DNA of 64,000 nt, from IMG/VR virus record IMGVR_UViG_3300020438_002794, positions 1 to 64,000 of that record; one strand, given 5' to 3'. Of the stretch, positions 5,663 to 47,051 are shown one piece after another. A program made the position numbers and the translations under genes. Every line of letters starts with the position of its first letter. Within the stretch, counting starts at the first letter, position 1. The DNA comes from a virus. A model generated the notes under the pieces. It was not told the DNA's origin. It worked only from the letters and a program-made list of their open reading frames with translations, and did not search any database.

Positions 5663-7144
5663 ATGAGTATCACCTTAGTAGCAAGCCCCCGAACTTCTAA
5701 CTCCATGCCTAGTCCTGCACTAGCGGCACTAAAGCCCTGTGTGGAAAATGCAGGTTTTAATTGTTACACAATAGATCTCAACATAGAATTTTACAATGAC
5801 TTAAAAGAACATTACAGTGTATACGGAGAAATAGATAATTATTTTCAAACAGACTTTCGTTATCTAAGTCAAGACATCTTAGACTTAGAACCTCTTACAA
5901 AAATGAAATATTCACTTAGTGATGATGCACTTGAACTTTATCAACAACATCTTAATAAATGGGCAGACCACATACTCAACCAAGACAACGAATGGATTGG
6001 TATTAGTTTGTTAAGTGTAAACAGTGTATTATATACTATTGACCTTACAGAAGTTCTTAAAGATAAATCTCCCGATTGTAAAATTGTACTAGGCGGTCCT
6101 GGTGTAAGCACATTCGGTATTATGGGAGCAAGTAACTTAGGTGAATTTATGATAGTTACTGGACTTGCAAATAGATATCTAACGGGAGAGGGAGAATATA
6201 GTTTAGTAGAATTATTAGATGGTAAAGAGAATACTGAACAAGAACAAATAGACAATTTAGATGTTTTACCTTTTCCAGACTACAGTGACTTTGACTTTAC
6301 AAAGTATGGGTCTCAACATAATGCAGTAGCAGTTACAGGGTCAAGAGGATGTGTTCGTAGTTGCACGTTTTGTGATATAAGAAGTGCATGGAAAAAATAT
6401 AGGTATAGAAGTGGTACAAGTATAGCAAATGAAATAATAAACCATCATCAAAAGTTCGGTAGTACAGAATTTAAATTTACTGACAGTTTGGTCAATGGTA
6501 GTTTAAAAGCATTTGAAGAGTTTCTTGATGCTATAATACTTGCTAAAAAACAAGGCTTGTTTACTAAAGATATAAAATGGAGTGGGCAGTTTATATGTAG
6601 ACCAATAAATCAATTCAAAGAAGAATGGTTTGAAAAGATGAGTCTTGCAGGTGCAAACATGTTACAGATAGGTGTAGAAAGCGGTAGTGAAGCTGTAATG
6701 CACAACATGGGTAAAAAATTAAGTAACGATGATATTGACTTTACCATTAGCATGTTAACCAAATATAAGATACAATGTGATTTATTAATGATAGTAGGTT
6801 ATCCAACTGAAACTGACGAAGACTTTGATATGACTCTTGACCTATTAGAAAGGTTAAGTCCTTATAGTGAACAAGGATGTATTGAAGGAATAAACTTAGG
6901 CAAGACAATGGTTGTATTACCAGGTAGTCCTGTAGGAGAAAATATGGCTCATTGGGGTATAGAATATGATGATAACAACAATTGGATCAGTACACTCAAC
7001 CCTGGACTAACATTTAAACAACGTGTAAAGCGTAGAGTACTGGCACAAGAAAAGTGCCAAGAACTAGGCTATATGATTAGATGGCCTTTAACCACACTAA
7101 GAACACTTAGTGAAAATCTAAAACTCAACAAAGAAACAGCTTAA
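5663..7144 (+). CDS. Radical SAM protein, B12-binding-like N-terminus
   Basis: 493 aa. Residues 1-200 read as a Rossmann-like domain of the cobalamin-binding type (CKIVLGGPGVST at 139-150, then LTGEGEYSLVELL). The classic DxHxxG cobalamin motif is not evident, so B12 binding is doubtful. The radical SAM core carries C230xxxC234xxC237 (GCVRSCTFCDIR), later an IGVESGSE motif and a LMIVGYPTETDED strand typical of B12-radical SAM (methylthiotransferase/BchE-like) proteins. It cleaves SAM to a 5'-deoxyadenosyl radical; the substrate is unknown. This is the only plus-strand radical SAM gene, and it lies apart from the main array. Confidence 0.85.
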   Translation: MSITLVASPRTSNSMPSPALAALKPCVENAGFNCYTIDLNIEFYNDLKEHYSVYGEIDNYFQTDFRYLSQDILDLEPLTKMKYSLSDDALELYQQHLNKWADHILNQDNEWIGISLLSVNSVLYTIDLTEVLKDKSPDCKIVLGGPGVSTFGIMGASNLGEFMIVTGLANRYLTGEGEYSLVELLDGKENTEQEQIDNLDVLPFPDYSDFDFTKYGSQHNAVAVTGSRGCVRSCTFCDIRSAWKKYRYRSGTSIANEIINHHQKFGSTEFKFTDSLVNGSLKAFEEFLDAIILAKKQGLFTKDIKWSGQFICRPINQFKEEWFEKMSLAGANMLQIGVESGSEAVMHNMGKKLSNDDIDFTISMLTKYKIQCDLLMIVGYPTETDEDFDMTLDLLERLSPYSEQGCIEGINLGKTMVVLPGSPVGENMAHWGIEYDDNNNWISTLNPGLTFKQRVKRRVLAQEKCQELGYMIRWPLTTLRTLSENLKLNKETA

Positions 7145-7145
7145 A

Positions 7146-9513: not shown

Positions 9514-9521
9514 TTTATTTC

Positions 9522-10340
9522 CTATATAGTATATTTGTAATCAAATATATCGTCATCTGCCATCCACTCATATACTTGTTCTAAGTTATTTACAAGATTT
9601 CCTTTGTGTCCTTGTTTGTATTTTATCTTCTTATAAGTATCAACCGGTTGTGAGTCAAACCCCAACAGTGGAAGTATCTGTTCAACATCATGTTGCCAAT
9701 CTTCATAATGTATAACATTTTGTATTTGTCCACGCTGTTTAAAGTGTTCAAATAAACGATTTGTTTTTTTCAATGCTTGCACATAAAAATCGTAAATCTG
9801 GTAGTTTATATCAAATGATTCAACATCTACAGTCTGATCCTCAAAACCAATGTGCATAATGTTTGTATGCTTGCTTACCAAATTACTTAATATCTGTTCT
9901 CTTATATCTCGTCTTGCACAGAAAATAAAACTATATCCATCAAGCAAACTAGTATCTTCAAAATATTTCAAAAACGTTTCTGTTTGTATTTTAAAAAAAC
10001 TTTTGTCTTGGTTAGTAACATTTTGTCTAAGCAACTGACTTCTTTTTTTAACTTCTTTTAAGTATCTTTCAGTACCTATTTCGAACGGCTTAGGATTATT
10101 GAGGATAAAGGTACGCTGTACGGATCCATCTATTTGGTCATATGTTTTTATATATGTTCCGTCAGGTAATGGCAGTTTATAAGGTACATTTATATCTTTT
10201 CCGTTTTCGTCATATCTCATCAGATTTTCAGATATACTAGTAATCTCTCCAATATAGTCTTTGTTATGGGCTTGTGCTAAACATTGACCAACAACTGTAC
10301 TGCCGGTTCGATTAAAACTGAGTATTGCAAGTGTTTTCAT
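9522..10340 (-). CDS. Sulfotransferase family protein
   Basis: 272 aa. The N-terminal LSFNRTGSTVVGQ (8-19) is a 5'-phosphosulfate-binding loop like that of PAPS sulfotransferases (R-S/T-G-S/T pattern). A central region FIFCARRDIREQILS resembles the 3'-phosphate-binding segment with R and S residues. It transfers a sulfuryl group from PAPS to a hydroxyl or amine; the acceptor is unknown. Start codon overlaps the upstream radical SAM stop (ATGA). It is distinct from the pair at 40-42 kb. Confidence 0.75.
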   Translation of the reverse strand: MKTLAILSFNRTGSTVVGQCLAQAHNKDYIGEITSISENLMRYDENGKDINVPYKLPLPDGTYIKTYDQIDGSVQRTFILNNPKPFEIGTERYLKEVKKRSQLLRQNVTNQDKSFFKIQTETFLKYFEDTSLLDGYSFIFCARRDIREQILSNLVSKHTNIMHIGFEDQTVDVESFDINYQIYDFYVQALKKTNRLFEHFKQRGQIQNVIHYEDWQHDVEQILPLLGFDSQPVDTYKKIKYKQGHKGNLVNNLEQVYEWMADDDIFDYKYTI

Positions 10341-11458
10341 ACCTTTCTCTTAGGTATTTTACTATCAGCACTACTAACGCAACTAGGACTAATACAAGGC
10401 ATAGGCTGATCAAATAACTTAAATCCTGTCTCGATGTTGCCAAGAGGAACATCATAGCAACTGTAGCTACGTTTGATACTTCCGTCAGGTTCTCTAATGA
10501 TAATACCTTGATAGCCTGCATTGCAACTCCAGCCTTTAAACTTGTTAAAGTTAAATGCATTAAATCTCTCCGCTTGATCCATGTACCATTTTTTGCCTTT
10601 ACTATCTTGAAATTCAATTTGCATGTGCCAAGGTACACTAGCATCATTTTCGCCTATTGTGTAAGGCGGCAGTTCGAAACTAGGCCTTGGACGAGCATTC
10701 CACTTGCGTTTTGACTCTGTATACGCCATTTGCGGCATACCGTTCCACAATCGCTGTAGCATTTCGTCTGTATAACCGTCCACGACTCTACTTGCCGTTG
10801 GGTCCGATTGAGGTTTGAGGGTAACGTTGATTCCTTGGTTGTGGAAGAATAGGGCATTATCCCAATCTTTCTCAAACCAGTCTGGAACCATAACCATGTT
10901 GATTGTAATTTGTACATCATGTTCCTGACAGAAGATGAGTTTGTCGGCAAACTCTTGCATCTTCTCCTTTGTATTTAAGTGTTCTGTATGTAGGCTAGCT
11001 GTGATACTAGCTCTATGAAATGGCTTTGCATACTCGACATATTTCTCAAACCATTTCATATTGCGACTACAATTTGAGGTCATATGGATACTAGTATAAT
11101 TGGTATTAGGCACATCATTAGCAAGGTGTAAGAGGATTTCCAAATAGCCAGGATGAAAAGTAGGCTCACCGCCAGATAAGCTAAAATGAAAACTATTAAA
11201 TCCATTGTCTCGTGCCTGCCTTTTTATCTCATCGATTGTATGAATACAGAGCTGTGTGGGCCTGTGATCTTTGCGATCTGATCGGGCGTATGGCCAACAA
11301 TAACTGCACTTATAGTTGCAAAAGCGACCAAGAAGCCAACTAACAGTAAACAAATCTCTGTATAGTAGCGTCCTTTGTCCGACCGAAACCAAGTCATCAA
11401 ACGGTATTTTTGTAAAGTCATAATCACTCCACTTTAAATCTTCATTGGATTGTGCCAT
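10337..11458 (-). CDS. Radical SAM protein with C-terminal twitch domain
   Basis: 373 aa. Core motif C47xxxC51xxC54 (RFCNYKCSYC) and SGGEP near 95-99, the SAM-binding GGE motif. The C-terminus (about 310-365) has GWSCNAG, SYSCYD, GNIETGF and PCISPSC, a cysteine set of the twitch/SPASM type that would bind an auxiliary Fe-S cluster. It resembles the proteins at 18556 and 42374 (same W...C.G, G.IE, C...C ending). SPASM/twitch enzymes modify peptides, sugars or nucleosides; the substrate is unknown. Confidence 0.9.
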   Translation of the reverse strand: MAQSNEDLKWSDYDFTKIPFDDLVSVGQRTLLYRDLFTVSWLLGRFCNYKCSYCWPYARSDRKDHRPTQLCIHTIDEIKRQARDNGFNSFHFSLSGGEPTFHPGYLEILLHLANDVPNTNYTSIHMTSNCSRNMKWFEKYVEYAKPFHRASITASLHTEHLNTKEKMQEFADKLIFCQEHDVQITINMVMVPDWFEKDWDNALFFHNQGINVTLKPQSDPTASRVVDGYTDEMLQRLWNGMPQMAYTESKRKWNARPRPSFELPPYTIGENDASVPWHMQIEFQDSKGKKWYMDQAERFNAFNFNKFKGWSCNAGYQGIIIREPDGSIKRSYSCYDVPLGNIETGFKLFDQPMPCISPSCVSSADSKIPKRKV

Positions 11459-11612
11459 CTAATCGTTTCTCTAGGTATTCGATAACTGCTGGATAAAGAT
11501 CATTAGGCTTTTCTGCATGTAGCTCACGCACCGCATTCAGTTCATGTTCTAAGAATTCTCTAACAGTCCAACTTTCATAATCGCTGTTGGTTGCATGTAC
11601 TTTAAATTCCAT
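11442..11612 (-). CDS. Small ORF, 56 aa, probable gene
   Basis: ATG at 11612 to TGA at 11442. It overlaps the 3' end of the nucleosidase-like gene by 11 bases and the start of the radical SAM gene by 17, filling an otherwise empty 143 bases. The product is acidic and helical (starts MEFKVHATNSDYESW; contains REFLEHELNAVREL and ends EYLEKRLDGTIQ). Its position directly before a radical SAM gene makes a precursor peptide or accessory role worth testing; no leader or core motif recognised. Confidence 0.6.
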   Translation of the reverse strand: MEFKVHATNSDYESWTVREFLEHELNAVRELHAEKPNDLYPAVIEYLEKRLDGTIQ

Positions 11613-12150
11613 TTCTTACTTTCTCCGTAAAAATTTCTGCGCCATTGGCTACATTAGTAGTCCAGTCGTCCATAGCGTTTTCATCTGCCATATCACTAAT
11701 ATACTTAAAACTTCTAAATTTAATATTATATTCTCTGGCTACATAAGCCAATGCCCAACCTTCCATATCCACACAATCTATATTTTGTTGTTCAAACCAT
11801 GGGTCAGGTTCCATAACAAAACTATCACCTGTACCACAACGTATACCTTGTCCTGATGTTTGTATTTCACCTAACAATGGTTCAGTAAACGGAATACTAC
11901 CTCTGGGTGCTTGTGGCTCCGCCATCATATCACGCTGTAAAAATGAACCAACTTCATGTAGTCCACTAATACCACTTACACCACCTGCAGTACCGTAATT
12001 CCAAATTTCAACTGGTTTATAAACGTGACATAAACTTTTTGCAAGTGCAGTAGCCGCTTGTACTTTGCCTACTCCAGTATATATTACTGTGTATCCATTC
12101 ATTTTAAAATCAGGTAGTTCAGCTTCTAGAGCTACACATATTGTTATCAT
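11602..12150 (-). CDS. MTA/SAH-nucleosidase-like (nucleoside phosphorylase superfamily)
   Basis: 182 aa, short compared with about 230 for bacterial MTA/SAH nucleosidases. Motifs in order: VALEAEL with E9/E11, TGVGKVQAA (25-33), NYGTAGG (51-57), CGTGDSFV (105-112), DMEGWALA with E130, and ISDMAD with D153. These match the catalytic Glu and Asp of the family. Such enzymes hydrolyse MTA, SAH and 5'-deoxyadenosine. The last is the by-product and inhibitor of radical SAM reactions, so placement in a radical SAM operon is meaningful (inference). Confidence 0.82.
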   Translation of the reverse strand: MITICVALEAELPDFKMNGYTVIYTGVGKVQAATALAKSLCHVYKPVEIWNYGTAGGVSGISGLHEVGSFLQRDMMAEPQAPRGSIPFTEPLLGEIQTSGQGIRCGTGDSFVMEPDPWFEQQNIDCVDMEGWALAYVAREYNIKFRSFKYISDMADENAMDDWTTNVANGAEIFTEKVRNGI

Positions 12151-12695
12151 TGTTGCCTCGCCTGCATTGGATCAATGCTTATCTCATTTATATTAACATC
12201 TTTTGGCTGTTCTATCAACCACTTTACATATCTAGCGGCTTGATCAATACTCATACATACCCTGTCAGGGTGCTTGTGTTGATTGTTGCTGAGTGTACCA
12301 AAACTTATGTAGCTGGTCTTTGGTCCGCTGTGCCATACTCCTAATAAAGATAAGCTATTGCTGTAGTCACGCAATGCTTTCTTTTCAGCATTATACAACC
12401 AAGCTGATCCTTTCTTAGTTCTATCAGTAGTTGAGCCAATACATACAATATGTGCTTCGCTTTTGGCTGTTCTAAGCGCCTTGTATACTATATCCAGTAG
12501 GACAGTTTGATGAAAGCGCCATAATGCACTGTTTATTATAATTATGTCATGTTTAGTACATTCGTTTGCAAATGTAAACATATGATCTGTTTTAGTTAAA
12601 TCGTATCCTGATTCTCTGCTACAAAAAACAGCATTTGGATACAGTTTATGTAATGCTTGTGCAACACCTTCTTTGGGATTACCTGTTATAATCAT
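12147..12695 (-). CDS. Short-chain dehydrogenase/reductase, compact
   Basis: 182 aa, shorter than the usual 250. TGNPKEGVA at 4-12 stands for the TGxxxGxG nucleotide loop, NSA at 55-57 for NAG, S88 in CIGST, and Y101xxxK105 (YNAEKKAL). All three catalytic residues (S, Y, K) are present, so a reduced but probably active NAD(P)-dependent oxidoreductase. Overlaps the upstream radical SAM gene; its AGGAG (complement of 12702-12706) lies inside that gene's last codons. Substrate unknown. Confidence 0.72.
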   Translation of the reverse strand: MIITGNPKEGVAQALHKLYPNAVFCSRESGYDLTKTDHMFTFANECTKHDIIIINSALWRFHQTVLLDIVYKALRTAKSEAHIVCIGSTTDRTKKGSAWLYNAEKKALRDYSNSLSLLGVWHSGPKTSYISFGTLSNNQHKHPDRVCMSIDQAARYVKWLIEQPKDVNINEISIDPMQARQQ

Positions 12696-13836
12696 ATGTC
12701 TCTCCTCTTATTTTATCTAATTTTGTACTCCATTCTACAAAATATTTTTGATGTCGTTCAATACTATCATGTGTTAATTCTTTTATTATGTCTTTGAAAT
12801 ATTCATGGTCAGGATATCTTTGTTGTAATCGCAATACCTGTTGCATAGCTTGTTGTTTTTGTTCATCACTAGCATGTCTTGCCTGTAGTTGTTTTGGACC
12901 AGTTAATACTCTGTGTTCAATATAATCGATGCCTACATAACTTAAACACCAATTGTAAAACTCTTCTAAGTTACACATATTGTATACTTGATAAGTTCCG
13001 TTCAAACTCAGTGTATTATGCCATTCGTCTCTGCCTCCTTTTTGCCATTTATTGAGTTGCTGAATCTTAACATTTACTTCTTCCCATGTATAGTTATAGC
13101 CACGCATATATGGATACAAATCTCCAGTTGCGTCTATACTAACATGTATTTGAGTTCGCAAATAGTCTTTCAACTCTTCTAGTCTGGACACATCTAATTT
13201 GCTGGCATTTGTAGTAATTAACAATTTTACTTTTATCGGATCAACATATTGTTTTAGTTTATCCAAAAAGTCAAACACACTATTGTCCATAAATGGTTCA
13301 CCGCCTGTTATCCATATGCCATGTAGTTCTCCAAGCTCAGGGCCAAACTCTTGCAAAAACTTGTCTACATCTATTTGTTGTTTGGGATTACTTTGACTAG
13401 CGTCATATTTACCACCCATTTTTTTCCAGTCTGGTATCCACGCATTACTAAAATGTGGACCACACATTCTGCATTTAAAATTGCATATATTATTAAAGTT
13501 CATATATAAATGTTTTATTTTATTTCTGCGAACGTTTAAATTTTTTACATAAACATTCTCTTCACCCATATACTTTTTTTCGCCTTTTTGCGAAAACCAT
13601 TTGTTACGTCTACTGGTCTGTCCGTTTTGCTCTTTGTACCAACAACTATGACAACCATCTTCGTCCCATTTACCCGCAAGCATGTCAGTACGCAGAGTGG
13701 TAAACTTATCGTTACTCCATGCATCACGTTCGATTGGACCCATGTTGTAGTTACTCATCATGCATCTTGTTAGCCAATTGTTTGGATTAACTGCAAGTGT
13801 TACAAATGGCATTGGGCAATATGTATCTTTATGCAT
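12679..13836 (-). CDS. Radical SAM protein, N-terminal twitch type
   Basis: 385 aa. N-terminal cysteine domain YCPMPFVTL (C7), RCMMSN (C25, single rather than CC) and GCHSC (C62, C65); then the radical SAM motif C118xxxC122xxC125 (NICNFKCRMC) and WITGGEPF. The C-terminus ends LDKIRGETYDYNR, a shortened form of the LDxxR tail of its neighbours. It is the most divergent member of the tandem array. Likely a 5'-deoxyadenosyl-radical enzyme with an auxiliary Fe-S cluster; substrate unknown. Confidence 0.9.
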   Translation of the reverse strand: MHKDTYCPMPFVTLAVNPNNWLTRCMMSNYNMGPIERDAWSNDKFTTLRTDMLAGKWDEDGCHSCWYKEQNGQTSRRNKWFSQKGEKKYMGEENVYVKNLNVRRNKIKHLYMNFNNICNFKCRMCGPHFSNAWIPDWKKMGGKYDASQSNPKQQIDVDKFLQEFGPELGELHGIWITGGEPFMDNSVFDFLDKLKQYVDPIKVKLLITTNASKLDVSRLEELKDYLRTQIHVSIDATGDLYPYMRGYNYTWEEVNVKIQQLNKWQKGGRDEWHNTLSLNGTYQVYNMCNLEEFYNWCLSYVGIDYIEHRVLTGPKQLQARHASDEQKQQAMQQVLRLQQRYPDHEYFKDIIKELTHDSIERHQKYFVEWSTKLDKIRGETYDYNR

Positions 13837-15031
13837 AATGACTCCATTCAGGATAAGCTAGTGCGAAACTTTGTTTACGACTTGTATCTAGAAGACCTTG
13901 TACTCTTCTAAATTCATTGAGATCGATATCTTCTTTTGTGTTATCTAGTGCATAATCTATTGCACCTTTTATTTTATTTAAGTGCTTGATTACCAGAGGT
14001 TTTTGTGCAGATTGGATCCTATCACTATAAAAGTTGCTAGCCCTGTCTAAATCTTTTTTATAAAAATTCATAATACTCATTTCAAACGGATCTTGTACAA
14101 TATTAAAAACAAATTCTATATCTGAATAGTATTCAACCATGTCTGCCAAATGATACATGTTCATCCAGCTTATACCTGCATGAAAGTTTAAATGCCACTG
14201 TGGGCCTTGATTGCGGACAAACTCTGCATACTGTTTTACATTAGCGTCAACTATATGCCAATCATCTTTTGCACTTCTGGCCCAAGCATGACGTTGTCCC
14301 ATACCTTCAGCACTTATTTGTATTCTTTTATTTTTATTACCTTTAAAATGACTGAACTGTTCTAGTAGATCATATTTGCCATATTTTATTGTTGTACCAT
14401 TTGTTATCAAACTTAATGCTATATCAGTATTGCCTACTCTGATTATTTCTTCCAGCATCTGATAAGTTCCAGGCATAATAGTTGGCTCACCGCCTGCCAT
14501 TTTTATTTTCTTTACATAAGGTAAATGCGTTTTAAAGTCGTCCCATTTCATATCAAATTCTGCAATGCCAGTTTTTGGATTAACGTTTGACACTTCCATG
14601 CCCAGCATCTTAGCTTCTTTAAGCCAAAGATTACTGCTACTCAACCCACAGAATCTACATTTATAATTGCACAAGTTGCTCCAGCGTATATCCAAATACT
14701 CCAAGTGAAAGTTGTCCATACTCCCATCTGCATTAGTAACTGAACGGGCTTGTTCTTCATCCCACCAATGATATGTTTTCAAACTAAATGTTCGTACACT
14801 ATCGTCAGATAACTTTTCTCTGTTATTGCATTTCCAACACATGCTAGGCACAGTGTTAGGATCGAGTAGTTCTAATCTCAATTTTTTCATAATTGAATTG
14901 TTTGCTGTTTCAGCTATTGTGCTAGCCATTTCAAAAGGGTCTTTATACGTTTCACAACAGGCTTGTACTTGCCCGCCACTTCTGAACATCAAATGATTCC
15001 AAGGCAAAGGACAAAAGAAATCATTGCTCAT
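13829..15031 (-). CDS. Radical SAM protein, N-terminal twitch type (duplicate of neighbour)
   Basis: 400 aa. FFCPLPWNHL (C7), QACCET (C25, C26) and CWKC (C65, C68), then C121xxxC125xxC128 (NLCNYKCRFC) and MAGGEPTIMPG. The tail is LDTSRKQSFALAYPEWSHYA. Very similar along its length to the next upstream gene (15021), including IAETANN and LLDPNT, so a tandem duplication. Its last codons (TGG AGT) supply the GGAG Shine-Dalgarno of the following gene; its own GGAGG lies in the upstream gene, seven bases before the ATG. Confidence 0.92.
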   Translation of the reverse strand: MSNDFFCPLPWNHLMFRSGGQVQACCETYKDPFEMASTIAETANNSIMKKLRLELLDPNTVPSMCWKCNNREKLSDDSVRTFSLKTYHWWDEEQARSVTNADGSMDNFHLEYLDIRWSNLCNYKCRFCGLSSSNLWLKEAKMLGMEVSNVNPKTGIAEFDMKWDDFKTHLPYVKKIKMAGGEPTIMPGTYQMLEEIIRVGNTDIALSLITNGTTIKYGKYDLLEQFSHFKGNKNKRIQISAEGMGQRHAWARSAKDDWHIVDANVKQYAEFVRNQGPQWHLNFHAGISWMNMYHLADMVEYYSDIEFVFNIVQDPFEMSIMNFYKKDLDRASNFYSDRIQSAQKPLVIKHLNKIKGAIDYALDNTKEDIDLNEFRRVQGLLDTSRKQSFALAYPEWSHYA

Positions 15032-22228: not shown

Positions 22229-22230
22229 AT

Positions 22231-31848: not shown

Positions 31849-32362
31849 CTTGTACATCCTTTATTAGTTTGTATGGTATTCCAATACTTTCTAATAATCG
31901 TATGAGTCTTATCTCACTGCCTTTCATTATTGTATCTATAGAGTTATTATCTATAAATCTTTCTAAGTATTTTATTTGTCCATCGGTTAAATTCATATCC
32001 CATCTTTTTTGTATGTTATCACCTAGCTCAGTTTCAAATATGCCATTGGCCCATAACAAATCATCCTCTACTGCATGATTGCAGTAGTAGAATTCAAAAT
32101 TCTCTTGCTCAAGTCGCCACAAATGTTCTTTCCAGTCAAACTTGTAAAAACAAAGATCTTGGACATTTGCACCTTGTATAACAATATGTTCATACTTCTT
32201 TATTATATCATCTTTATGTAAATGTGTCAAGATATCATAATAGTTGATGTAGTTTCCGTAATCCAAAGTATACACAGTATATAGATGTTCATCAGACAAC
32301 TTTTCTAACCAAGTTGATCCTGGTTTGCTTGCACCGTCACCAATTATCAGTACATCTTTCAT
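31817..32362 (-). CDS. Hypothetical protein, 181 aa
   Basis: Starts MKDVLIIGDGASKPGSTW, a short strand and glycine loop as in SGNH or Rossmann proteins, then DYGNYINYYDIL and IVIQGANVQDLCFY. No clear catalytic triad or complete nucleotide motif. Overlaps genes on both sides. Location next to two SGNH-like genes suggests a related, diverged member; confidence in that is low. Confidence 0.6.
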   Translation of the reverse strand: MKDVLIIGDGASKPGSTWLEKLSDEHLYTVYTLDYGNYINYYDILTHLHKDDIIKKYEHIVIQGANVQDLCFYKFDWKEHLWRLEQENFEFYYCNHAVEDDLLWANGIFETELGDNIQKRWDMNLTDGQIKYLERFIDNNSIDTIMKGSEIRLIRLLESIGIPYKLIKDVQDENIDIWTTR

Positions 32363-38209: not shown

Positions 38210-38840
38210 GGTACTCGCTTCCTTGTCTGAAGAAATCATATTCTGGGTATCCAGTAACTTCTTTTAGTATAAAGTTATCCTTTTTAAAAACCAGATCAAC
38301 CTGGTGCAGGTTTCCACGTTCATAATCCATGTTTACAATATCCCACAAGTGAAAACCTATATCTTCTAGTTCTATTTTTATAAAACCAATAGTGTCTAAT
38401 TGACTTTCTACTACTATCAGATTAAATTTAGCCAGTGTCTCTAATCCGCCAACTATTACATCTAATTCATAACCATCGACGTCAATTTTACACAAACTAT
38501 GCAAAGGTGGGTCAATACCTAAACTATCCAAAGTTTTTATGTTAGACTTTATATCAAAAGTTTCGCCTTCGTGTACGCACCTTAAACTTGCTTGTGTTTG
38601 ATTAGTGTTACCAACTGCTACATTTATAAGTTCATAACTGTAGTTTTTATAGTTTTCGTATATTACATTATTATGATTTGTATCTGGTTCAACTAAAACA
38701 TAATGTGCTTTAGGAAAACTATACTGTAACCACGGAGTTCCCGAATGTACTCCAATATCCAAACAATATTCAACGTGACAACCCGACTCTTTTAAAAATT
38801 GCAAGCTATCTTTTATTCTAGGAATACGATGTCTAATCAT
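38196..38840 (-). CDS. FkbM-family methyltransferase
   Basis: 214 aa from ATG 38840 (GAGG six bases upstream) rather than the ATG four codons before it. CLDIGVHSGTPWLQYSFP (SAM loop), YVLVEPDTN, then KTLDSLGIDPPLHSLCKIDVDGYELDVIVGG, the KxDVxGxE signature of FkbM methyltransferases. They O-methylate sugars or other small molecules with SAM and yield SAH. Sits between two MORN-fusion genes. Confidence 0.85.
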   Translation of the reverse strand: MIRHRIPRIKDSLQFLKESGCHVEYCLDIGVHSGTPWLQYSFPKAHYVLVEPDTNHNNVIYENYKNYSYELINVAVGNTNQTQASLRCVHEGETFDIKSNIKTLDSLGIDPPLHSLCKIDVDGYELDVIVGGLETLAKFNLIVVESQLDTIGFIKIELEDIGFHLWDIVNMDYERGNLHQVDLVFKKDNFILKEVTGYPEYDFFRQGSEYHESN

Positions 38841-40266
38841 TTCCGACCTCATATAATCCTAGTTCGTCAGCTTCAAAGTTTTCCGGCTTGGGAGACCATA
38901 TTCCTATTAGTGCATTTTTATATTGCCAATAGCTCTGAGGACGCATGTCCCATATTCTCCATTTACCCTTTCTTGCAAGATCCAGTTGTGGTTGATCTAA
39001 TGTTTCATGCGAGTATATGTCAGGAGTGCAACACATTTCTTCACTAACTAAAATTCCTCTTTGTGGATTCATTAGGTTCTTTACAGCATGTAATTTCTTC
39101 CATGCTGTGACTCCGTGTGTTGCATCATGTATTGCAAAATCTACCGGACCATACTTGTTCATTAACTGTTTACAAGTATTAGGTGAATAGCAATTTACAC
39201 CAAGCTCTAGTTTTACTCCTTCAATTTTACTAGCAATTTTTAAATCTTCTACTTGCTGTCTCTCTAGTGCATTTTCAGGTATACTAGTTGGTGTTAGTTT
39301 ATCAACTCCGATTATAGTTGCTTGTGGAAATAATTTTTGTAAAAACTGTAAATGTTCGCCTCTACCAATTCCAAGTTCAACAATAGTATAATTTTCATTT
39401 AATCCAAATATTTTATTTGTTCTTTTAAGATGTTTAACTATCAAATCATATACTGCACAGTATCTTCTTTGCATTCTGCGTTCAACACTTCTAGTAGTAT
39501 TGTCTACCATATCAAATGCAATGCTACTATATGTTTCAAAGTCTACCGGAGTGCCTAGTAAAAAGTTGCTCTCATAATCTCCTTGCCCTAACTGTTGAAC
39601 TTGTATTCTTCCATGGTGTCTCCCACTTAAGAAATGTCCTTTTGCAGTTCTAATCCAATCTCCGTAGTGTGTTGTATCTCTTTTTCCTTGTATAAAGTTA
39701 TATGGAGGTACATGTTTAGTTTCAGTAACAAAGTTTTTCTCTTCATGCCTAGTTACATCAAACTCTTGTTCATCTTTATAAGTTGTAGTTCTACCACCTA
39801 CTGCATTTACTATTGTGCCATCATCGAGTGTTCTACAACCTAAACCATCTATGTTGCATTCTTCTAATCCACATGGTACATCATTTAGATACCACTGTCC
39901 TTCTCTTGGTTCAGCAATCATTCCATCTACACGACCTATAAACTTTACACCTTCGTGTACTGTTTCAAGTACACCGTAGCCGCAAGGTTTGTTATTACTA
40001 AACTGTCCATAATATCTTGCACCAGTGGGCCATACATGCACACCATATCCTTGTTTTTTATCCAACAAGTATTGTCCTACATAAGTTTCACCATGATCCC
40101 ATTCTTTAGAGGCCATGCCAGTAACTTTACTGTGATCAAAATCAGCCGCACACTTGCCTGTCAATGGCAGATTATAAAATCCTAAGCCATGTTCAAACTG
40201 TGTTCCATGTCGGTCTTGCACGACTTGTCCTATGTATGTTCTAGATGGCTTATAGTAGTCCCTCAT
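38833..40266 (-). CDS. MORN-repeat protein fused to class I methyltransferase
   Basis: 477 aa from ATG 40266 (ATGA overlap with the upstream gene). The N-terminal 110 residues hold MORN repeats (GETYVGQYLLDKKQGYGVHVWPTG, RYYGQFSNNKPCGYG), further diverged copies to about 250, and a C-terminal class I methyltransferase: IVELGIGRGEHLQFL, IIGVDKLT, VDFAIHDATHG. This resembles cephalosporin-hydroxylase-type (CmcI-like) methyltransferases in its HDATH-like stretch; tentative. MORN repeats usually bind phospholipids or act as scaffolds and are rare in phages. Confidence 0.82.
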   Translation of the reverse strand: MRDYYKPSRTYIGQVVQDRHGTQFEHGLGFYNLPLTGKCAADFDHSKVTGMASKEWDHGETYVGQYLLDKKQGYGVHVWPTGARYYGQFSNNKPCGYGVLETVHEGVKFIGRVDGMIAEPREGQWYLNDVPCGLEECNIDGLGCRTLDDGTIVNAVGGRTTTYKDEQEFDVTRHEEKNFVTETKHVPPYNFIQGKRDTTHYGDWIRTAKGHFLSGRHHGRIQVQQLGQGDYESNFLLGTPVDFETYSSIAFDMVDNTTRSVERRMQRRYCAVYDLIVKHLKRTNKIFGLNENYTIVELGIGRGEHLQFLQKLFPQATIIGVDKLTPTSIPENALERQQVEDLKIASKIEGVKLELGVNCYSPNTCKQLMNKYGPVDFAIHDATHGVTAWKKLHAVKNLMNPQRGILVSEEMCCTPDIYSHETLDQPQLDLARKGKWRIWDMRPQSYWQYKNALIGIWSPKPENFEADELGLYEVGND

Positions 40267-41009
40267 GCAAAATGTTCCTTGCAATAATTGTAGAACTCTA
40301 TGTCCTTTGTTGTTGTTTCTTTCACTAGTTGTTTCTCAACGTCTGTTAGTTCCTCATAATTTACATAGTCAATACCATGTTGACTTAAATTAAACTTTGT
40401 ATTATGCTCATAGCTAATACTTAGATTGGGTTTCAGATCATACTGCTTGGCTACTTTATCAAACTGTTTTAAGTAATTATCCTCCATAAAGAACATATGA
40501 TCTAGTTTTTGTATATTCTCAATAGCTTGATCATATAGTTCTTGTTCATAAACGGTATCAATTTTCCTTCCGTAATCAATACGCAAACATTGTTCATTAC
40601 TGAACTTCTGATATTGTGCATATACAGGAGTTGGATGTAATCTACTACAATTAATAATCCAAGTTGTAAAGTCAATATCAGTAATACAACTATGCACGTT
40701 AATTATTTCTAACTTGAAATAATTGTATGCACTCATGATCCGTCTGACAGGATCTCTTAGTATAGTAGCATACTTTACAGGATTTTGCAAGTGTTTATCT
40801 AAATCAAAGCTAACGCCATGTCCAATTATCAAACTAACCTTTTGATCTTTGCAATCTTCTATTAGAACTTTATACTGATTGGGTTGTCTAAAATTAAACA
40901 CTAGTTCTTGAGCAACACGTTGATAAGCAAATGTACTATTTGTTCTATATCTGTTTACTAGAGTGGTTCCTCCATTTTTAAGTATATGAAATACTGCTAG
41001 TGTTTCCAT
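40263..41009 (-). CDS. Sulfotransferase
   Basis: 248 aa. FHILKNGGTTLVNRYR (7-22) is the 5'-phosphosulfate loop, with K11 and T15/T16; ILRDPVRRIMSAYNYF is the 3'-phosphate-binding motif with R and S. Same motif order as the neighbour at 40997, of which it is a paralog. Likely soluble, uses PAPS; acceptor unknown. Confidence 0.85.
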   Translation of the reverse strand: METLAVFHILKNGGTTLVNRYRTNSTFAYQRVAQELVFNFRQPNQYKVLIEDCKDQKVSLIIGHGVSFDLDKHLQNPVKYATILRDPVRRIMSAYNYFKLEIINVHSCITDIDFTTWIINCSRLHPTPVYAQYQKFSNEQCLRIDYGRKIDTVYEQELYDQAIENIQKLDHMFFMEDNYLKQFDKVAKQYDLKPNLSISYEHNTKFNLSQHGIDYVNYEELTDVEKQLVKETTTKDIEFYNYCKEHFA

Positions 41010-41833
41010 TTGTCTTCACACCTTTTGAAAAATTCTATGTCTGCTTGTAAATCTAATTCAACAAGATATTTTAAGTCTTCGTCTAGTTGATGATACTTAA
41101 CATATTCTAAATTGTGTTTGCTTAAATCATGGCTTGTTTCATTTGTATAAATCATTTCTTCCCATGCATCTAAATCTAATTTATAGTGTGCTAGTAAATC
41201 GTCAAACCTTTCAACTATGTCGTCTTCTTGGAAAAACACATGATCCATTTTACTCATTACTCTTTCCCAAGTGATATTCATATTGTGTGTTTCAATTTGA
41301 TTTTTTTCTTTTATCTTCTGCTGTATTTTTGCGTTGTCAACATAGCTTGTGTCTTTTTCAACGTCCCATGTAAGCACTGTGTTTAGATACATGTCGTTCA
41401 TTGTAAACGTATTTTTTAACGTTCCGGCGTCGAACCAATCAGTGTGTTCTACATGTTGATACAAATAGTATTCGTACTGTTTTGTAACTGGCATTGGACG
41501 TAGCACATCTTTGTTTATAAACCACATATAAAAATCAATGTCAGGACTGTCTGGGTTCATATACAGCATTTGTGTACGATAAAAATTGTACATGCTCATT
41601 ATTCTACTGATAGGATCTCTCACACAAGTTATATAAACTAAGTTGTTAGAAAGTTTTTCTTCGTAGTATCCTATTTGTACACTGTGTCCAAAAACTACAC
41701 TTGCTTGTTCTGTAACTTTATCACCAAGGTCAGTAATTCTAAAACTACTGTTGGTATTTCTGTATCTTTCTTTGAGTGTTGTTCCGCCTGTTTTAGGACA
41801 ATGAGGAAAGATGATAATATTACTTTGATTCAT
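40997..41833 (-). CDS. Sulfotransferase
   Basis: 278 aa. FPHCPKTGGTTLKERYR holds the P-loop-like PAPS motif (PKTGGTTL), and CVRDPISRIMSMYNFY the 3'-phosphate motif. C-terminal MIYTNETSHDLSKHNLEYVKYHQL parallels the same region in 40263, confirming paralogy. Acceptor specificity probably differs. Adjacent to a degenerate third copy at 41820. Confidence 0.86.
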   Translation of the reverse strand: MNQSNIIIFPHCPKTGGTTLKERYRNTNSSFRITDLGDKVTEQASVVFGHSVQIGYYEEKLSNNLVYITCVRDPISRIMSMYNFYRTQMLYMNPDSPDIDFYMWFINKDVLRPMPVTKQYEYYLYQHVEHTDWFDAGTLKNTFTMNDMYLNTVLTWDVEKDTSYVDNAKIQQKIKEKNQIETHNMNITWERVMSKMDHVFFQEDDIVERFDDLLAHYKLDLDAWEEMIYTNETSHDLSKHNLEYVKYHQLDEDLKYLVELDLQADIEFFKRCEDKWKH

Positions 41834-42377
41834 TGTACACTCCGGTTTGTATTTTTCTTTTACACTTTCTTAAAAAATTATAATCTATACTGTTAGCTAC
41901 TTGATAGTCTCCTCGTAGTGCAGTGTCGAGCTCATTACTTTCAAATCTAGTGTTAAAGTTCAAAAGTGGATAATCTGTTTTTAAATACTTGCTGAGTCTT
42001 TGTGAAAGAATTTCCAAAGTAAAATCATCATGATTCATAACTTGTTCTTTTGGATAAAGAGATCCTTTAGTAGGGTTCCATGTGATATAATTAATAAACC
42101 CTATAAATTTGTAATTTTTTTCTTCAATTTCTTTAGTTTCACTAGTGTGTATATCTAAACTTGTAGTAATTACATTTCTTTCTTGAAACACTAACTCTTC
42201 AAAAGTTTTACCCTTAGAATCTCCTCCACTGTCTAAAAAATCCATTGTTTGTTCTATAGCTCTATCAAACGGATCTCTGAATATTAAAATGTCAGCATTT
42301 TCTGTTACTAGCTCTAAGTTGTATATGTTTGCAATCTGTTCATGCCAGCAGTTTGGAATATAATGTAATTTATTCAT
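41820..42377 (-). CDS. Degenerate sulfotransferase-like protein
   Basis: 185 aa. NADILIFRDPFDRAIEQTMDFL (about 28-49) resembles the 3'-phosphate-binding motif (RDP..R) of the two sulfotransferases that follow, and the C-terminal LRKCKRKIQ end is similar, but the N-terminal PKTGGTT loop is missing. Either a decayed copy, a truncated but regulatory relative, or an independent protein. The frame is intact and overlaps both neighbours, so it is expressed if the operon is. Confidence 0.6.
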   Translation of the reverse strand: MNKLHYIPNCWHEQIANIYNLELVTENADILIFRDPFDRAIEQTMDFLDSGGDSKGKTFEELVFQERNVITTSLDIHTSETKEIEEKNYKFIGFINYITWNPTKGSLYPKEQVMNHDDFTLEILSQRLSKYLKTDYPLLNFNTRFESNELDTALRGDYQVANSIDYNFLRKCKRKIQTGVYNESK

Positions 42378-43411
42378 ACAGCTACCGCTTCTTTAAACTT
42401 GCTTAGTATCAAATCAGTATTGCAAAAACAACTTGTCTTTTCACATGTGTATGCATAAGCAGGCATTCTAAAAGTCCTAAGATTCTCTATATGTCCAAGC
42501 CACCTTATAGTACCATTTTCATCTTTACCTTCAGGTAAACATGCGGCTCCACTAATATATCCAAGTTCATTGACAAATAAACCATCTATACCAGCATTAC
42601 ACTTCCATCCTTTGAATTGATTTTTCTTTGAAGCATATAGTCCGTTTGTATCTAATATAGTTTCTTCTTTGTATCTGCCATCAGCCATTTTATAAACTGC
42701 TGTAGCATCAATTGGCATACTGTACTGTTCAAAACTAACATCTGGGTTACCAGTTTTTCTTTTGAATGCTAGTTTCTCATCAATCTTTGCTTGCTGTTCT
42801 TTTGTGTATACATGTGGTCTTTCTTTCTCTGTTAACCAATCAGCAACAATAGGAACTTTCTCTACAAAAAACTGTCCCATATATGGTTGTGTTTTTAGTA
42901 TTTCAAAAAACTCAATACACTTATCAAAGTATACTTGTTGTGGGTGCATCATAATACGCACTCCTAATAGTGTATAAGGCCAAAGTGTATCAATAACTTT
43001 AACACAATGTTTTAAACTTGTTTTCTCACTGTGAAAACTAAAACTTACCCAACGAAAACTTTCTTTGTGCTTTTCCCAAAATTTAAGACTTTTGCTTCCG
43101 TTTGTTGTCAATCCAATTTGTACCTTTTCTTCTACTAACCAGGTTAGGAAATCATCGAATACAGGCAATGCTGTAGGTTCACCGCCAGTAAAACTTATAA
43201 CAAGTTCTTCATCTTCATTGAGATAACTTTTAATTTTAGTTACAAATGCTTTGTATACTTCTAAGTCAAAAGCAGGACTACTACCTTCGTAATTGTAAGG
43301 GTGGCAGTATGCACAACTGAAATTACACTTGTTGGTCAAGTTCCAGTTTACATGAAAGTATTTGTTATACTTTTGTTTGATCTCAATAAGTTCTGCACTA
43401 TCCGACAGCAT
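42374..43411 (-). CDS. Radical SAM protein with C-terminal twitch domain
   Basis: 345 aa. Core C29xxxC33xxC36 (NKCNFSCAYC), SFTGGEPTALP. The C-terminus has GWKCNAGIDG, GAACLPEG, GHIENL and TCEKTSCFC, the auxiliary-cluster set. This terminal block is the one that reappears ahead of the core in 36866. Overall like 10337 and 18556. Substrate unknown. Confidence 0.9.
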   Translation of the reverse strand: MLSDSAELIEIKQKYNKYFHVNWNLTNKCNFSCAYCHPYNYEGSSPAFDLEVYKAFVTKIKSYLNEDEELVISFTGGEPTALPVFDDFLTWLVEEKVQIGLTTNGSKSLKFWEKHKESFRWVSFSFHSEKTSLKHCVKVIDTLWPYTLLGVRIMMHPQQVYFDKCIEFFEILKTQPYMGQFFVEKVPIVADWLTEKERPHVYTKEQQAKIDEKLAFKRKTGNPDVSFEQYSMPIDATAVYKMADGRYKEETILDTNGLYASKKNQFKGWKCNAGIDGLFVNELGYISGAACLPEGKDENGTIRWLGHIENLRTFRMPAYAYTCEKTSCFCNTDLILSKFKEAVAV

Positions 43412-44411
43412 CTACTTTTCCCTCGGTAAGTTTATAGCCGCTAACTTGATTAAAGTCTGGATCTGGAACTATATCAAAACTTCCAACTTTTAACATTCCC
43501 CAGGTTAGCATATCAAATTTGTTACGAGTATCAGTCTTTTTAATTTTATAACCACCCCAGTAGTTGTCTAAACTATAATTTAAATGATCTACTGCTTCTT
43601 CATGTGTTCTTGGATCGCCACACCAAAACATTAGTTGACTGGTGTAACAGCAACATTGTTCTAGTAAATCAAAACTACTACTGGTCATTTTGATAGCATT
43701 GTATTTGTCATCATCATACATTTCGATCATCACGTTATCATAATCGTACCCTATTTGTGTAGGATATAAAAATATCTCGCCTGGATTTCGTTCCATACTA
43801 AAACGATCAACCCATTCATCTTCTAAATAATGAAACTGTTCACCAAACTTCAATCCAAAATTTTGTAGATTTGTTTCTTGTGTAACAGTTGTTGTTACGT
43901 CTCTTAATACTTTGAGTGAATGGAAAATATCAACCAACTTTTCAATATGTCTCGTAAGTCCTTGGTCATTTAGAACACGATAGATTAGTATACATTGTGT
44001 TTGCATAGGATTAAGTATATCCTGGTGTACTATTAGCCCCCATTGGTGATCTATTTTTCCAGCATCCATTTTATACCATTCTTGTAATGGAATAAACTTT
44101 TGCAAAGTATTATCAATCTTAGTAAATGCTTGTCCACTACTCATTACGGTGTGTCCTAGTATGTCACTCAACGGTATGTTGTCAGTTTTGTATGCATCTG
44201 CAATTTCATTCCATTCTTCTATTTTATCATTGAGAGCAGGAATGATTTCGTATAATCTTTCTAATGCTTGATGAACCAGATACACATTCCAATGTGTTAT
44301 ATATGGTTTACCGATAATATCTAACTCCAACTCAAACCAGTCTGCAAAGATATCGCATTTGATTAGTTGTTTTTCTTTTTTATCGTTTTGTAATTCAAGC
44401 TCAAACTTCAT
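43398..44411 (-). CDS. Hypothetical protein, 337 aa
   Basis: ATG 44411 chosen because GGAG lies five bases upstream, inside the last codons of the radical SAM gene before it. The frame opens 10 codons earlier. Soluble alpha/beta protein (FADWFELELDIIGKP, WGLIVHQDILNPMQTQCILIYRVL); a CCCY cluster and GDPRTHEEAVDHLNYSLDNYWGG near the C-terminus. No family recognised. Coupled to radical SAM genes on both sides, so it may be a partner or substrate-handling protein. Confidence 0.68.
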   Translation of the reverse strand: MKFELELQNDKKEKQLIKCDIFADWFELELDIIGKPYITHWNVYLVHQALERLYEIIPALNDKIEEWNEIADAYKTDNIPLSDILGHTVMSSGQAFTKIDNTLQKFIPLQEWYKMDAGKIDHQWGLIVHQDILNPMQTQCILIYRVLNDQGLTRHIEKLVDIFHSLKVLRDVTTTVTQETNLQNFGLKFGEQFHYLEDEWVDRFSMERNPGEIFLYPTQIGYDYDNVMIEMYDDDKYNAIKMTSSSFDLLEQCCCYTSQLMFWCGDPRTHEEAVDHLNYSLDNYWGGYKIKKTDTRNKFDMLTWGMLKVGSFDIVPDPDFNQVSGYKLTEGKVDAVG

Positions 44412-45699
44412 ACTTGCTCCATAGTTTATAAAGCTCTGCAAAGTCAGAATTGAAGTCTGTTTTACGCATTGTATCTATACTGCGAATATATTTGTTGAGG
44501 GCGGGCCACTTGTCGCTCCAATCCTCGCTATTCATAAAGTTTGTCATATTCTTTAATTCTTGCACTTTATTCTTTTCTGGGTATTTCAGCATGAAGTTAT
44601 CAATTTTTTCTGTTATAATTTGTTTCATTTCCTTAGGTAATACTTTAGCACACATGTACTGTGGATAGTGTAACACGCCAGGATGAAACATTCCTTGGTG
44701 ATCATGTATTCCAATTTTTTTATAGTTTTGATCAAACAAAAACTGTGCAAAGTCTGGCAAATACCAAATGTTTAATGCACTTACAGTACACAATACTTTA
44801 CCAACAATATGGTCAGCCGCGTTTTCTACTTTGTCCAGTGTTTCGTGTACAGTTTTCCAATTAGTTGGATAGCGTAACCATTTGTTCATTTCGCCTATGC
44901 CATCTATACTAAGCATAAGTTCTACAAACTTAAAGTGACCCCAAAGTTCTAATATATCATCTGGCATAATAGTACCATTGGTATGATAGCGTAGTTCTAT
45001 ATGTTCAGCATGTCCACTTTCGACACATTTCTTTAAGAAACGTCTGTGGTTCTTTAAATATAAAGGCTCGCCGCCTGCAAATATAAAGTGACGCATTCCG
45101 GCTAACAATGGATCTATCTCTTGTTCCCAAAACTCATCATCAGCGGCCCAGTCATATTTGTTGTTGCAATGGTCTTGTATTTTCCAATCCCAGTCACCTT
45201 TTACTTCAGGATTGTCGTGACTTAGATCTCTAATCTTTTCTGCATCTTTGACCCATTTACTAGAGTCAGTTGGTCTACACATAACACATTGTACATTACA
45301 AGTATTACCTAACCGTAAATCTAATGTAATAACATCTTGATCCAAACTGCCATCTTCGTTAGTGCTGGCTATTAGTTCGTCAACATATTCTCTTGTTAAT
45401 TTCTTTACCCATAGATTGTTTTCATTCATTCTATGACTACGAATACCTGCCGCTTCTTCTTTCCAGCAATGCATACATGCTTTTAGTGCTTTGCCGTTGA
45501 GCATATCTTTTCTAGCATTTTTCCAATAGTAACTGTTCCATACTGCATTTATATCAGCATTGTTTAAGTTAATACGTTGGTCTTGTGTAGGCTGAGCTAG
45601 ACAGCAAAGCAAAGCTGTGCCGTCTGTATAAGTTGCCATGTGCATCCATGGAAGAATACAAAATTTCTTTCCATAGTCTTCCAAAAAATCTTGTGCCAT
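44401..45699 (-). CDS. Radical SAM protein, N-terminal twitch type
   Basis: 432 aa. KFCILPWMHM (C14), LLCCLA (C32, C33), CMHCWKEEAAG (C75, C78); core C134xxxC138xxC141 (NTCNVQCVMC); FAGGEPLYL; tail IDTMRKTDFNSDFAELYKLW. Member of the array family although 22 kb away from the main run; most like 20822 in length and FAGGE form. Its final TGG AGC codons carry the Shine-Dalgarno of the next gene. Confidence 0.92.
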   Translation of the reverse strand: MAQDFLEDYGKKFCILPWMHMATYTDGTALLCCLAQPTQDQRINLNNADINAVWNSYYWKNARKDMLNGKALKACMHCWKEEAAGIRSHRMNENNLWVKKLTREYVDELIASTNEDGSLDQDVITLDLRLGNTCNVQCVMCRPTDSSKWVKDAEKIRDLSHDNPEVKGDWDWKIQDHCNNKYDWAADDEFWEQEIDPLLAGMRHFIFAGGEPLYLKNHRRFLKKCVESGHAEHIELRYHTNGTIMPDDILELWGHFKFVELMLSIDGIGEMNKWLRYPTNWKTVHETLDKVENAADHIVGKVLCTVSALNIWYLPDFAQFLFDQNYKKIGIHDHQGMFHPGVLHYPQYMCAKVLPKEMKQIITEKIDNFMLKYPEKNKVQELKNMTNFMNSEDWSDKWPALNKYIRSIDTMRKTDFNSDFAELYKLWSKYEV

Positions 45700-47051
45700 T
45701 ATTCTACCAACTTTCTAACATTTTGATACAAGTCATCATCAACAATACTAAAGTTGGTATTACGCTGTCTGTCCCATACTTCTGTCATCTTCACAAAGTC
45801 TTGTAATTGTTCTTTCCAATTATCTAACTGTGGTTGTTCCAAATATCCTACGATACCATCTACACTATTCTTAATTAACCAGTTCTTCTCATATAATATA
45901 TTACACTGTTCTTTAAATTCAAGCAATCTATTTTTTGCATTCTGTCTCATTTCAACAGGAAGATTTCTCACATCTAAATACGGAGGATGTGTATTAATTA
46001 ATATGTCAACACCAATACTTTTCCATTCTATTTCTGGCTTTCCTGCATAAAATTCTTCGCCTAACTCGTGTGCAAGCCATAGTATTTCGTGTATTCGATT
46101 TATGTTGTAGATTTGTAGTACAGGACTTATATTGCTAGAAACGTTTGGTAAACTTAATATGCTTCTATAGTTTCTAAGTATAATGTCCCAACTCTTAGTG
46201 CCTCGTATAAATTCATTTACAACGCCTACACCATCTAAACTAGCATTGATGTCTACACTTTCAAATTTACCAATACTATCCAAAAACTTTTGATTAGCAT
46301 TTGTACAGTTGGTATTCATAAACACATTAATATGTTTACTATGACCTTGTTCAGCGGCATAGTTTAAAAACTGCATGTTGTTTTGAATCATAGTTGGCTC
46401 ACCACCTGTCATGTAAACTTTTCTTAGTTTAGGCATCCATTCGTATATGTCTTTCCAAAAATCATCAGCATCAAACTTTTCTCTGTATTCTTTGCTGTTG
46501 ATCCAGTCTGGACGTTTGCCGTATGTTTTCTCTTGTATTCTGGTATAGTCCTCTTCAACATCTGTGAGCTTGGCATCTTCTTTAGCAATAGTACTACTGT
46601 TAAAACTGTTGCACATTCTACAACTAAGATTACACAAGTTACCCAAACGCAGGTCCAAGTAAAGAGGATCGTGTTCTGGTAATGCAAAGTCATTATTATA
46701 GCTTGCTTCAATGCGTTCATGAATAGCTTCTTCGCCTATACGGCGTTCCCATTCCTCATTGTGCATTTGTCTGAAACTTTTTTTACCTACTTCTTCTTGC
46801 AGGTAACAGTGTTTACAACTACTAACTTGTTCTCCTTGAATCATAGTCATGCGTATATCACGCATGTCTTTATCATTCCATGCTTGCTTTAGTGTTGTAC
46901 TATTGATATCTAAAATTTTGCCATCATCGCCACGTAGTACACTGGGTTTGGCAATACAGCAAAAGTCAATACTTCCACTGGTATTCACCATCATGCTTAA
47001 CCAAGGGTAAACACAAAATGTTTCCCCGTACAATTCATCCCAGTCTGCCAT
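45699..47051 (-). CDS. Radical SAM protein, N-terminal twitch type
   Basis: 450 aa. TFCVYPWLSM (C13), FCCIA (C31, C32), CKHCYLQEE (C79, C82); core C140xxxC144xxC147 (NLCNLSCRMC); YMTGGEPTM; tail WDRQRNTNFSIVDDDLYQNV. Its stop overlaps the next start as TAATG. Paired with 44401 as a second cluster of N-twitch genes. Substrate unknown. Confidence 0.92.
   Translation of the reverse strand: MADWDELYGETFCVYPWLSMMVNTSGSIDFCCIAKPSVLRGDDGKILDINSTTLKQAWNDKDMRDIRMTMIQGEQVSSCKHCYLQEEVGKKSFRQMHNEEWERRIGEEAIHERIEASYNNDFALPEHDPLYLDLRLGNLCNLSCRMCNSFNSSTIAKEDAKLTDVEEDYTRIQEKTYGKRPDWINSKEYREKFDADDFWKDIYEWMPKLRKVYMTGGEPTMIQNNMQFLNYAAEQGHSKHINVFMNTNCTNANQKFLDSIGKFESVDINASLDGVGVVNEFIRGTKSWDIILRNYRSILSLPNVSSNISPVLQIYNINRIHEILWLAHELGEEFYAGKPEIEWKSIGVDILINTHPPYLDVRNLPVEMRQNAKNRLLEFKEQCNILYEKNWLIKNSVDGIVGYLEQPQLDNWKEQLQDFVKMTEVWDRQRNTNFSIVDDDLYQNVRKLVE

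Follow-up and report, generated by a model that had tools for sequence, protein, structure and literature searches.

A marine T4-related phage with eighteen radical SAM genes and a conserved five-gene core

The radical SAM array and its viral context

The IMG/VR virus record IMGVR_UViG_3300020438_002794 has a length of 87,129 b, and its first 64,000 nt (hereafter, the window) contain 18 genes encoding radical S-adenosylmethionine (SAM) proteins, here designated R01 to R18 (Table 1). Comparison of related loci indicates that this region has a five-gene core, consisting of a glycosyltransferase-like gene (w28), a methyltransferase-like gene (w27), a gene for a 74-aa protein (SP), R11 and R10, with the other radical SAM genes forming an exchangeable periphery among glycan-tailoring genes.

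A search of the whole record with the Pfam model PF04055 gave exactly 18 matches, every one inside the window. Seventeen were above the curated cut-off, and the remaining one, R10, reached 25.9 bits with this model and 418.9 bits with N_Twi_rSAM (NF033640, curated cut-off of 170 bits). The N_Twi cut-off was passed by nine of the proteins (R03-R07, R09, R10, R17, and R18) and failed by the other nine; apart from the N_Twi members, the DesII-like R12 and the B12-type R01, the radical SAM genes gave weak NCBIfam matches. Each of the 18 open reading frames (ORFs) has a single CxxxCxxC motif, and an exact GGEP was found in 12 of them, R10 having GGES and R13 GGDP. A preliminary description of this DNA, made from the sequence alone, had counted 18 CxxxCxxC proteins, and all the starts it listed correspond to PF04055-positive ORFs. 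It had also described eight consecutive genes; the uninterrupted series in fact comprises nine, from 12679 to 23326. By these profile and motif matches, the presence of 18 radical SAM genes is well established and far beyond chance.

Alignment of 42 N_Twi proteins revealed four invariant cysteines (C11, C29, C94, and C97) that precede the core cysteines C150, C154, and C157 and the GGE motif. From their arrangement, the N-terminal cysteines are identified as a relocated SPASM-like site for an auxiliary Fe-S cluster. The proteins thus share with NF033640 both scores above the cut-off and the invariant N-terminal and core cysteines; what differs is that NF033640 is a subfamily model with no assigned reaction, and that it is here expanded in a virus. 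The preliminary description had considered that the motifs might lie outside radical SAM folds. The fold was tested on R10 alone, whose AlphaFold2 model (built on an alignment with 42 relatives; predicted local distance difference test, pLDDT, 88; predicted template modelling score, pTM, 0.88) had 19 PDB matches at E ≤ 0.001, all of them radical SAM enzymes.

The same description had raised the possibility of a bacterial contig, which was rejected on the basis of the baseplate, tail, and recombination genes of the record. Downstream of the array lie T4-type gp46/47, gp6, and further baseplate genes, and tail-fibre-type proteins are encoded within the window. The closest cultured gp6 homologs (35-40% identity) belong to jumbo myoviruses, among them Agrobacterium Atu_ph07, Salicola SCTP-2, RaK2, and CBB. 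This gene content identifies the contig as a genuine T4-related, jumbo-like marine myophage. Since its gp6 is closest to those of jumbo myoviruses and contigs of related array-carrying viruses reach 330 and 307 kb, the 87-kb record probably represents part of a larger, jumbo-type genome.

The array is also confirmed by independent contigs. Contig G036, with an identical gp6, shows six radical SAM matches before its end, with scores equal or nearly equal to those of R13-R18, and contig G037 (gp6 93% identical) carries 14 radical SAM genes. A collinear array was also found in NZGL01000008.1, a 108-kb contig binned as Gammaproteobacteria (metagenome-assembled genome, MAG, MED685). This contig was rejected as bacterial, as it bears gp6 (83% identity) and a 3240-aa virion protein (73%) beside the array; a second contig of the MED685 bin also holds N_Twi genes. 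By its gene content, the phage contig in this bin is a MAG contamination.

The five-gene core operon

Using R10 as query, 80 viral loci were retrieved with 67-97% identity, by means of short exact patterns that favour close relatives. R11 was present in 79 of these loci and SP in 64-66, depending on the method, with w28 and the w27 family located upstream of SP/R11. A second set of 75 newly fetched loci, some of them on contigs already seen, was obtained with SP alone as query and without the use of any radical SAM sequence. In this set, R11 was found within 4 kb downstream of SP in 64 of the 66 assessable loci and was missing from two, the other nine loci ending too soon; R11 touched SP in 33 of the 75, mostly through a 4-nt overlap. 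The co-conservation of a small ORF with a maturase gene expected for the precursor of a ribosomally synthesized and post-translationally modified peptide is thus observed for SP. On the other hand, about 14 of the 80 loci carry R11 and R10 but lack SP. As these loci mostly retain w27 directly before R11, the comparison indicates that the link is asymmetric: SP depends on R11, but the reverse does not hold. The SP-less loci were also searched for a divergent SP ahead of R11; none was found, the site being usually occupied by the methyltransferase-like gene.

SP is under purifying selection (ratio of non-synonymous to synonymous polymorphism, pN/pS, of 0.23), and its AlphaFold2 model consists of three helices (pLDDT 93). 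Its residues R9, Q12, E14, W43, Y44, and P59 are invariant. The model had no significant fold match in PDB or BFVD, and no match to SP was found among 50,697 phage records. A profile search against PDB gave nothing beyond chance matches to low-complexity helical proteins and antibodies; SP itself had no PHROG match, and its relatives gave only weak chance matches. Neither a leader/core architecture nor a recognised precursor family was detected for SP, which is predicted to be folded over its full length. Wherever present, SP occurs once per record (39 records examined). It is absent from the records found through gp6, with the exception of G037, in which the core is present, and from the phages CP220, Mosig, and K566. 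A role as Fe-S or electron carrier was ruled out, 23 of 27 members being cysteine-free.

As for the other core members, the invariant cysteines of R11 are C18, C22, and C25 plus C256, C275, C276, C344, and C348, the auxiliary set being C-terminal. For w28, a DxD-type motif is the single feature that points to a glycosyltransferase-like role, and sequence motifs suggest a methyltransferase-like role for w27. The proteins encoded by w28 and by positions 47054-48031 are two members of one unannotated DxD-containing family; relatives of both are present in nearly all array loci and are covered by no Pfam model.

The core belongs to a minus-strand run extending from 64000 to 7818, with 51 genes, 39 overlapping junctions, and only three gaps above 20 nt. 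One of these gaps, before w28, contains a predicted sigma-70 promoter. Promoters matching 11 or 12 of the 12 consensus positions were predicted upstream of w28 homologs in 19 of 99 distinct regions, vs 1.4 expected when pieces of these loci are drawn at random. If the early genes of T4-type phages are taken as a guide, these data suggest that the core may be transcribed early by the host polymerase.

Table 1. Radical SAM genes, other core genes, predicted promoter, and neighbouring genes in the window
Feature	Position	Strand	Evidence
R01, B12-binding-type radical SAM, apart from the array	5663..7144	+	PF04055 64 bits; best NCBIfam matches B12-dependent methyltransferases, all below cut-off
R02, radical SAM	10337..11458	-	PF04055 55.8 bits
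MTA/SAH nucleosidase-like protein	11602..12150	-	PF01048 64 bits; PDB MTAN matches
R03, N_Twi radical SAM	12679..13836	-	NF033640 234.6 bits
R04, N_Twi radical SAM	13829..15031	-	NF033640 282 bits
R05, N_Twi radical SAM	15021..16247	-	NF033640 275.2 bits; 49% identity to R04
R06, N_Twi radical SAM	16231..17394	-	NF033640 396.7 bits
R07, N_Twi radical SAM	17378..18574	-	NF033640 343.1 bits
R08, radical SAM	18556..19530	-	PF04055 48.3 bits
R09, N_Twi radical SAM	19530..20825	-	NF033640 297.8 bits
R10, N_Twi radical SAM, core operon	20822..22228	-	NF033640 418.9 bits
R11, radical SAM, C-terminal SPASM-like cysteines, core operon	22244..23326	-	in 79/80 R10 loci
SP, core gene 3, three-helix protein of 74 aa (candidate substrate or docking protein)	23319..23543	-	
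w27, core gene 2, methyltransferase-like	23540..24571	-	conserved family adjoining R11 in most loci
w28, core gene 1, glycosyltransferase-like	24555..25259	-	relatives (≥40% identity) in 69/80 R10 loci
Predicted consensus sigma-70 promoter before core operon	25284..25311	-	TTGACA-16-TATAAT, 12/12 matches
NAD-dependent sugar-nucleotide epimerase/dehydratase	25413..26366	-	PF01370 142 bits
Nucleotide-diphospho-sugar transferase	26354..27157	-	PF03407 23.3 bits, cut-off 22
R12, Gfo/Idh/MocA oxidoreductase-DesII-like radical SAM fusion	27081..29420	-	PF01408; TIGR04426 352 bits
NodU-type carbamoyltransferase	29375..30856	-	PF16861 177.6 bits, PF02543 135.8 bits
APS kinase-like P-loop kinase	31423..31857	-	PF01583 31 bits
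R13, radical SAM	33847..35121	-	PF04055 42.3 bits
R14, radical SAM, SPASM-like C-terminus	35075..35869	-	PF04055 57 bits; TIGR04085 weak
R15, radical SAM	36866..38239	-	PF04055 48.9 bits
FkbM-type methyltransferase	38196..38852	-	PF05050 38.5 bits
Sulfotransferase-like protein	40997..41833	-	PF03567 20.6 bits, slightly below cut-off 22
R16, radical SAM	42374..43411	-	PF04055 43.4 bits
R17, N_Twi radical SAM	44401..45699	-	NF033640 384.5 bits
R18, N_Twi radical SAM	45699..47051	-	NF033640 356.4 bits
APS, adenosine 5′-phosphosulfate; MTA/SAH, methylthioadenosine/S-adenosylhomocysteine; MTAN, MTA/SAH nucleosidase.

Distribution, divergence, and neighbouring genes

PF04055 counts in 35 records of R10 loci ranged from 5 to 25 radical SAM genes, and 13 of 18 gp6 relatives collected regardless of radical SAM content also carried such genes. 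Among named phages, the counts were 11 in CP220, 6 in Vibrio K566, 5 in KVP40, 4 in Atu_ph07, 2 in Mosig, 1 in RaK2, and 0 in SCTP-2. The preliminary description, by which most sequenced phages have at most one such gene, is therefore only roughly right and overstates their rarity, since arrays of 5-25 are common in related marine viruses. A viral contig of 76.8 kb (G012) has 25 radical SAM matches, exceeding the 18 of the window. In bacteria, a survey of 321 gammaproteobacterial genomes gave N_Twi proteins above cut-off in only two, and in one of these the match lies on a phage contig that had been assigned to a MAG. The sole clearly bacterial N_Twi protein above cut-off in these genomes (L285, positions 8203-9591, genome G070) is encoded by a gene that stands singly and adjoins a methyltransferase gene, in a genome of 65% GC.

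R10 and R11 are near-universal among the relatives, and the other sixteen radical SAM genes are variable. R10 is 67-97% identical among relatives in which gp6, when it could be detected, has 37-70% identity to the gp6 of the present record; R10 must therefore be strongly conserved or exchanged. Pairwise identity among the radical SAM paralogs of the window does not exceed 33%, with the sole exception of R04/R05 at 49%. A tree was built by a quick method for 67 N_Twi proteins encoded by 14 viruses; as some of its long branches meet, only the overall pattern is used. Genome labels change 54 times in this tree, so each virus has its paralogs placed beside their orthologs elsewhere; R03 and R06, for instance, pair with proteins of locus L014 (72 and 87%, respectively). 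Recent amplification was ruled out by the low paralog identity and this cross-virus grouping, in agreement with the earlier proposal that the array is not the product of gene amplification alone. That proposal also invoked a multi-step or multi-target pathway. A single pathway for all 18 is disfavoured by the variability of the sixteen, which by their distribution fit many separate tailoring steps better than a single fixed pathway.

The sugar-tailoring genes share an unbroken gene run with the radical SAM array, and the run leads without a break into the tail-fibre region. The C-terminal half of R12 aligns with DesII (PDB 8hzv) over 384 residues (E 5.7e-73); R12 differs from DesII in its fusion to a Gfo/Idh domain and in scoring 352 bits with the DesII equivalog model TIGR04426, below the cut-off of 450. 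This combination suggests that R12 could unite deoxygenase and ketoreductase activities on a sugar nucleotide in one polypeptide. R12 had no match in INPHARED; two SP loci contain orthologs with about 80% identity, and NZGL01000008.1 has a collinear copy. A nucleotidyltransferase-like and APS kinase-like pair at 31041-31857, together with several sulfotransferase-like genes (regions 9522-10340 and 40263-41833), suggests a phage-encoded sulfation branch. A MORN-repeat protein is encoded inside the tailoring run (38833-40284).

The MTA/SAH nucleosidase-like protein has a phosphorylase-superfamily match, with catalytic Glu/Asp motifs aligned to those of PDB MTAN structures, and could clear inhibitory 5′-deoxyadenosine. 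It was ruled out as a general partner of the arrays, being present in 3 of 36 array-bearing viruses. Phage-encoded Fe-S assembly was likewise ruled out as a general partner, the A-type carrier occurring in 4 of 22 and not in this record.

Possible roles of the array

The reading that we tentatively favour, with a probability of about 0.4, is that of an exchangeable island in the tail-fibre/host-recognition region that would tailor a host-surface or virion glycoconjugate. It is preferred because the island is rich in sugar-tailoring genes and the same mix is found in CP220, Mosig, and the pelagimyophage cassettes. The near-universal R10 and R11 with their changing periphery, the continuity with the tail-fibre region, and the enrichment of sigma-70 promoters before the core also speak for it. 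In CP220, radical SAM genes accompany glycosyltransferases and an amidinotransferase, and in Mosig a carbamoyltransferase and a sugar aminotransferase. The Campylobacter phages CP220 and CPt10, published in 2010 with 11 and 12 radical SAM genes, are T4-related and have, together with sugar transferases and an amidinotransferase, an interchangeable radical SAM cluster of five genes (PMC2853527); they differ in that no SP or N_Twi core operon was detected in them, in their smaller arrays, and in their gut rather than marine origin. The pelagimyophage host-recognition cassettes likewise combine a variable region linked to the tail fibre with lipopolysaccharide genes, glycosyltransferases, and swappable radical SAM cassettes (PMC7029224), although by gp6 these phages are of another lineage, the nearest cultured relatives of the present phage being jumbo phages.

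Under glycoconjugate tailoring, the host RNA polymerase would transcribe the core early, and core and peripheral enzymes would then build up a glycoconjugate of the cell surface or of the virion and modify it. The DesII/Gfo-Idh fusion would deoxygenate a sugar, other enzymes would carbamoylate, sulfate, and methylate, and the N_Twi enzymes would perform radical dehydrogenation, epimerisation, or cross-linking. With its own tailoring set, each phage would make a different product, and the likely benefits would be the blocking of superinfection or an altered receptor recognition. Several observations weigh against this proposal: w28 and w27 have no Pfam or PDB match, PDB profile search included; the core holds SP, a small protein without a link to sugars; and the PDB entries nearest to the R10 model by Foldseek (CteB, SkfB, anSME, and SuiB) are peptide or protein maturases.

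These last two points bring close a modification of peptides or proteins, the main rival, which we consider only somewhat less probable, with SP as ribosomal substrate or docking protein of R11/R10, further phage or host proteins as targets of the other N_Twi enzymes, and the sugar genes as separate passengers. The proximity of R11 to SP, the purifying selection on SP and its lack of phage homologs, and the N_Twi cysteines with their relocated SPASM-like site agree with such a role. However, some loci have R11 and R10 without SP, and the stable predicted fold of SP shows no leader/core division. The similarity of R10 to the maturases is also limited: template modelling (TM) scores are 0.3-0.4, with BlsE, viperin, and MoaA close behind, the auxiliary cysteines of R10 are N-terminal, and no leader-bearing precursor peptide is evident. 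Glycoconjugate tailoring and protein modification could both hold. It is conceivable, though unlikely, that SP founds a new family of phage protein substrates, carriers, or docking proteins of a radical SAM maturation pathway, on which R11 and R10 would make the first modifications and swappable N_Twi enzymes would diversify the product.

A loose set of independent auxiliary metabolic genes, each radical SAM enzyme aiding a different cofactor or metabolite pathway of the host, would account for the low paralog identity and the high turnover between phages. The marine T4-like genome TARA_ERS488813_N000010, published in 2017, has 12 radical SAM genes together with Fe-S metabolism genes, among them an A-type carrier that the present record lacks; the core operon is not described in the corresponding section of that paper (PMC5332604). 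This explanation appears improbable: no cofactor equivalog match was above cut-off, the order of the core operon is fixed, and the near absence of N_Twi proteins from the 321 bacterial genomes indicates that they do not belong to host metabolism. Very improbable, finally, is a kinship with prokaryotic viperins, in which the array would serve as an anti-defence or decoy set. The family viperin_w_prok is among the best weak matches of several members, but the highest score, 51.6 bits for R08, is far under the NF038283 cut-off of 180 bits, so prokaryotic viperin identity was rejected, and MoaA and maturase families score similarly.

To our knowledge, no function has been assigned to the numerous radical SAM genes of such phages, the first of which were noted in 2010. 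Multi-radical SAM phages are already on record (PMC2853527, PMC7029224, and PMC5332604). In the open literature searched, closed literature being outside the search, no paper was found that describes SP, the five-gene core, or arrays of 18-25 genes. The puzzle of 18 enzymes shrinks to an operon of five genes (SP, R11, R10, w27, and w28) that can be synthesised and expressed and has a named candidate partner. If SP does found a new family, the virus would run a combinatorial radical tailoring line. Resolving the function of the core would also show why ocean viruses devote so much coding space and host iron to Fe-S enzymes seldom found in the sampled genomes of cells.

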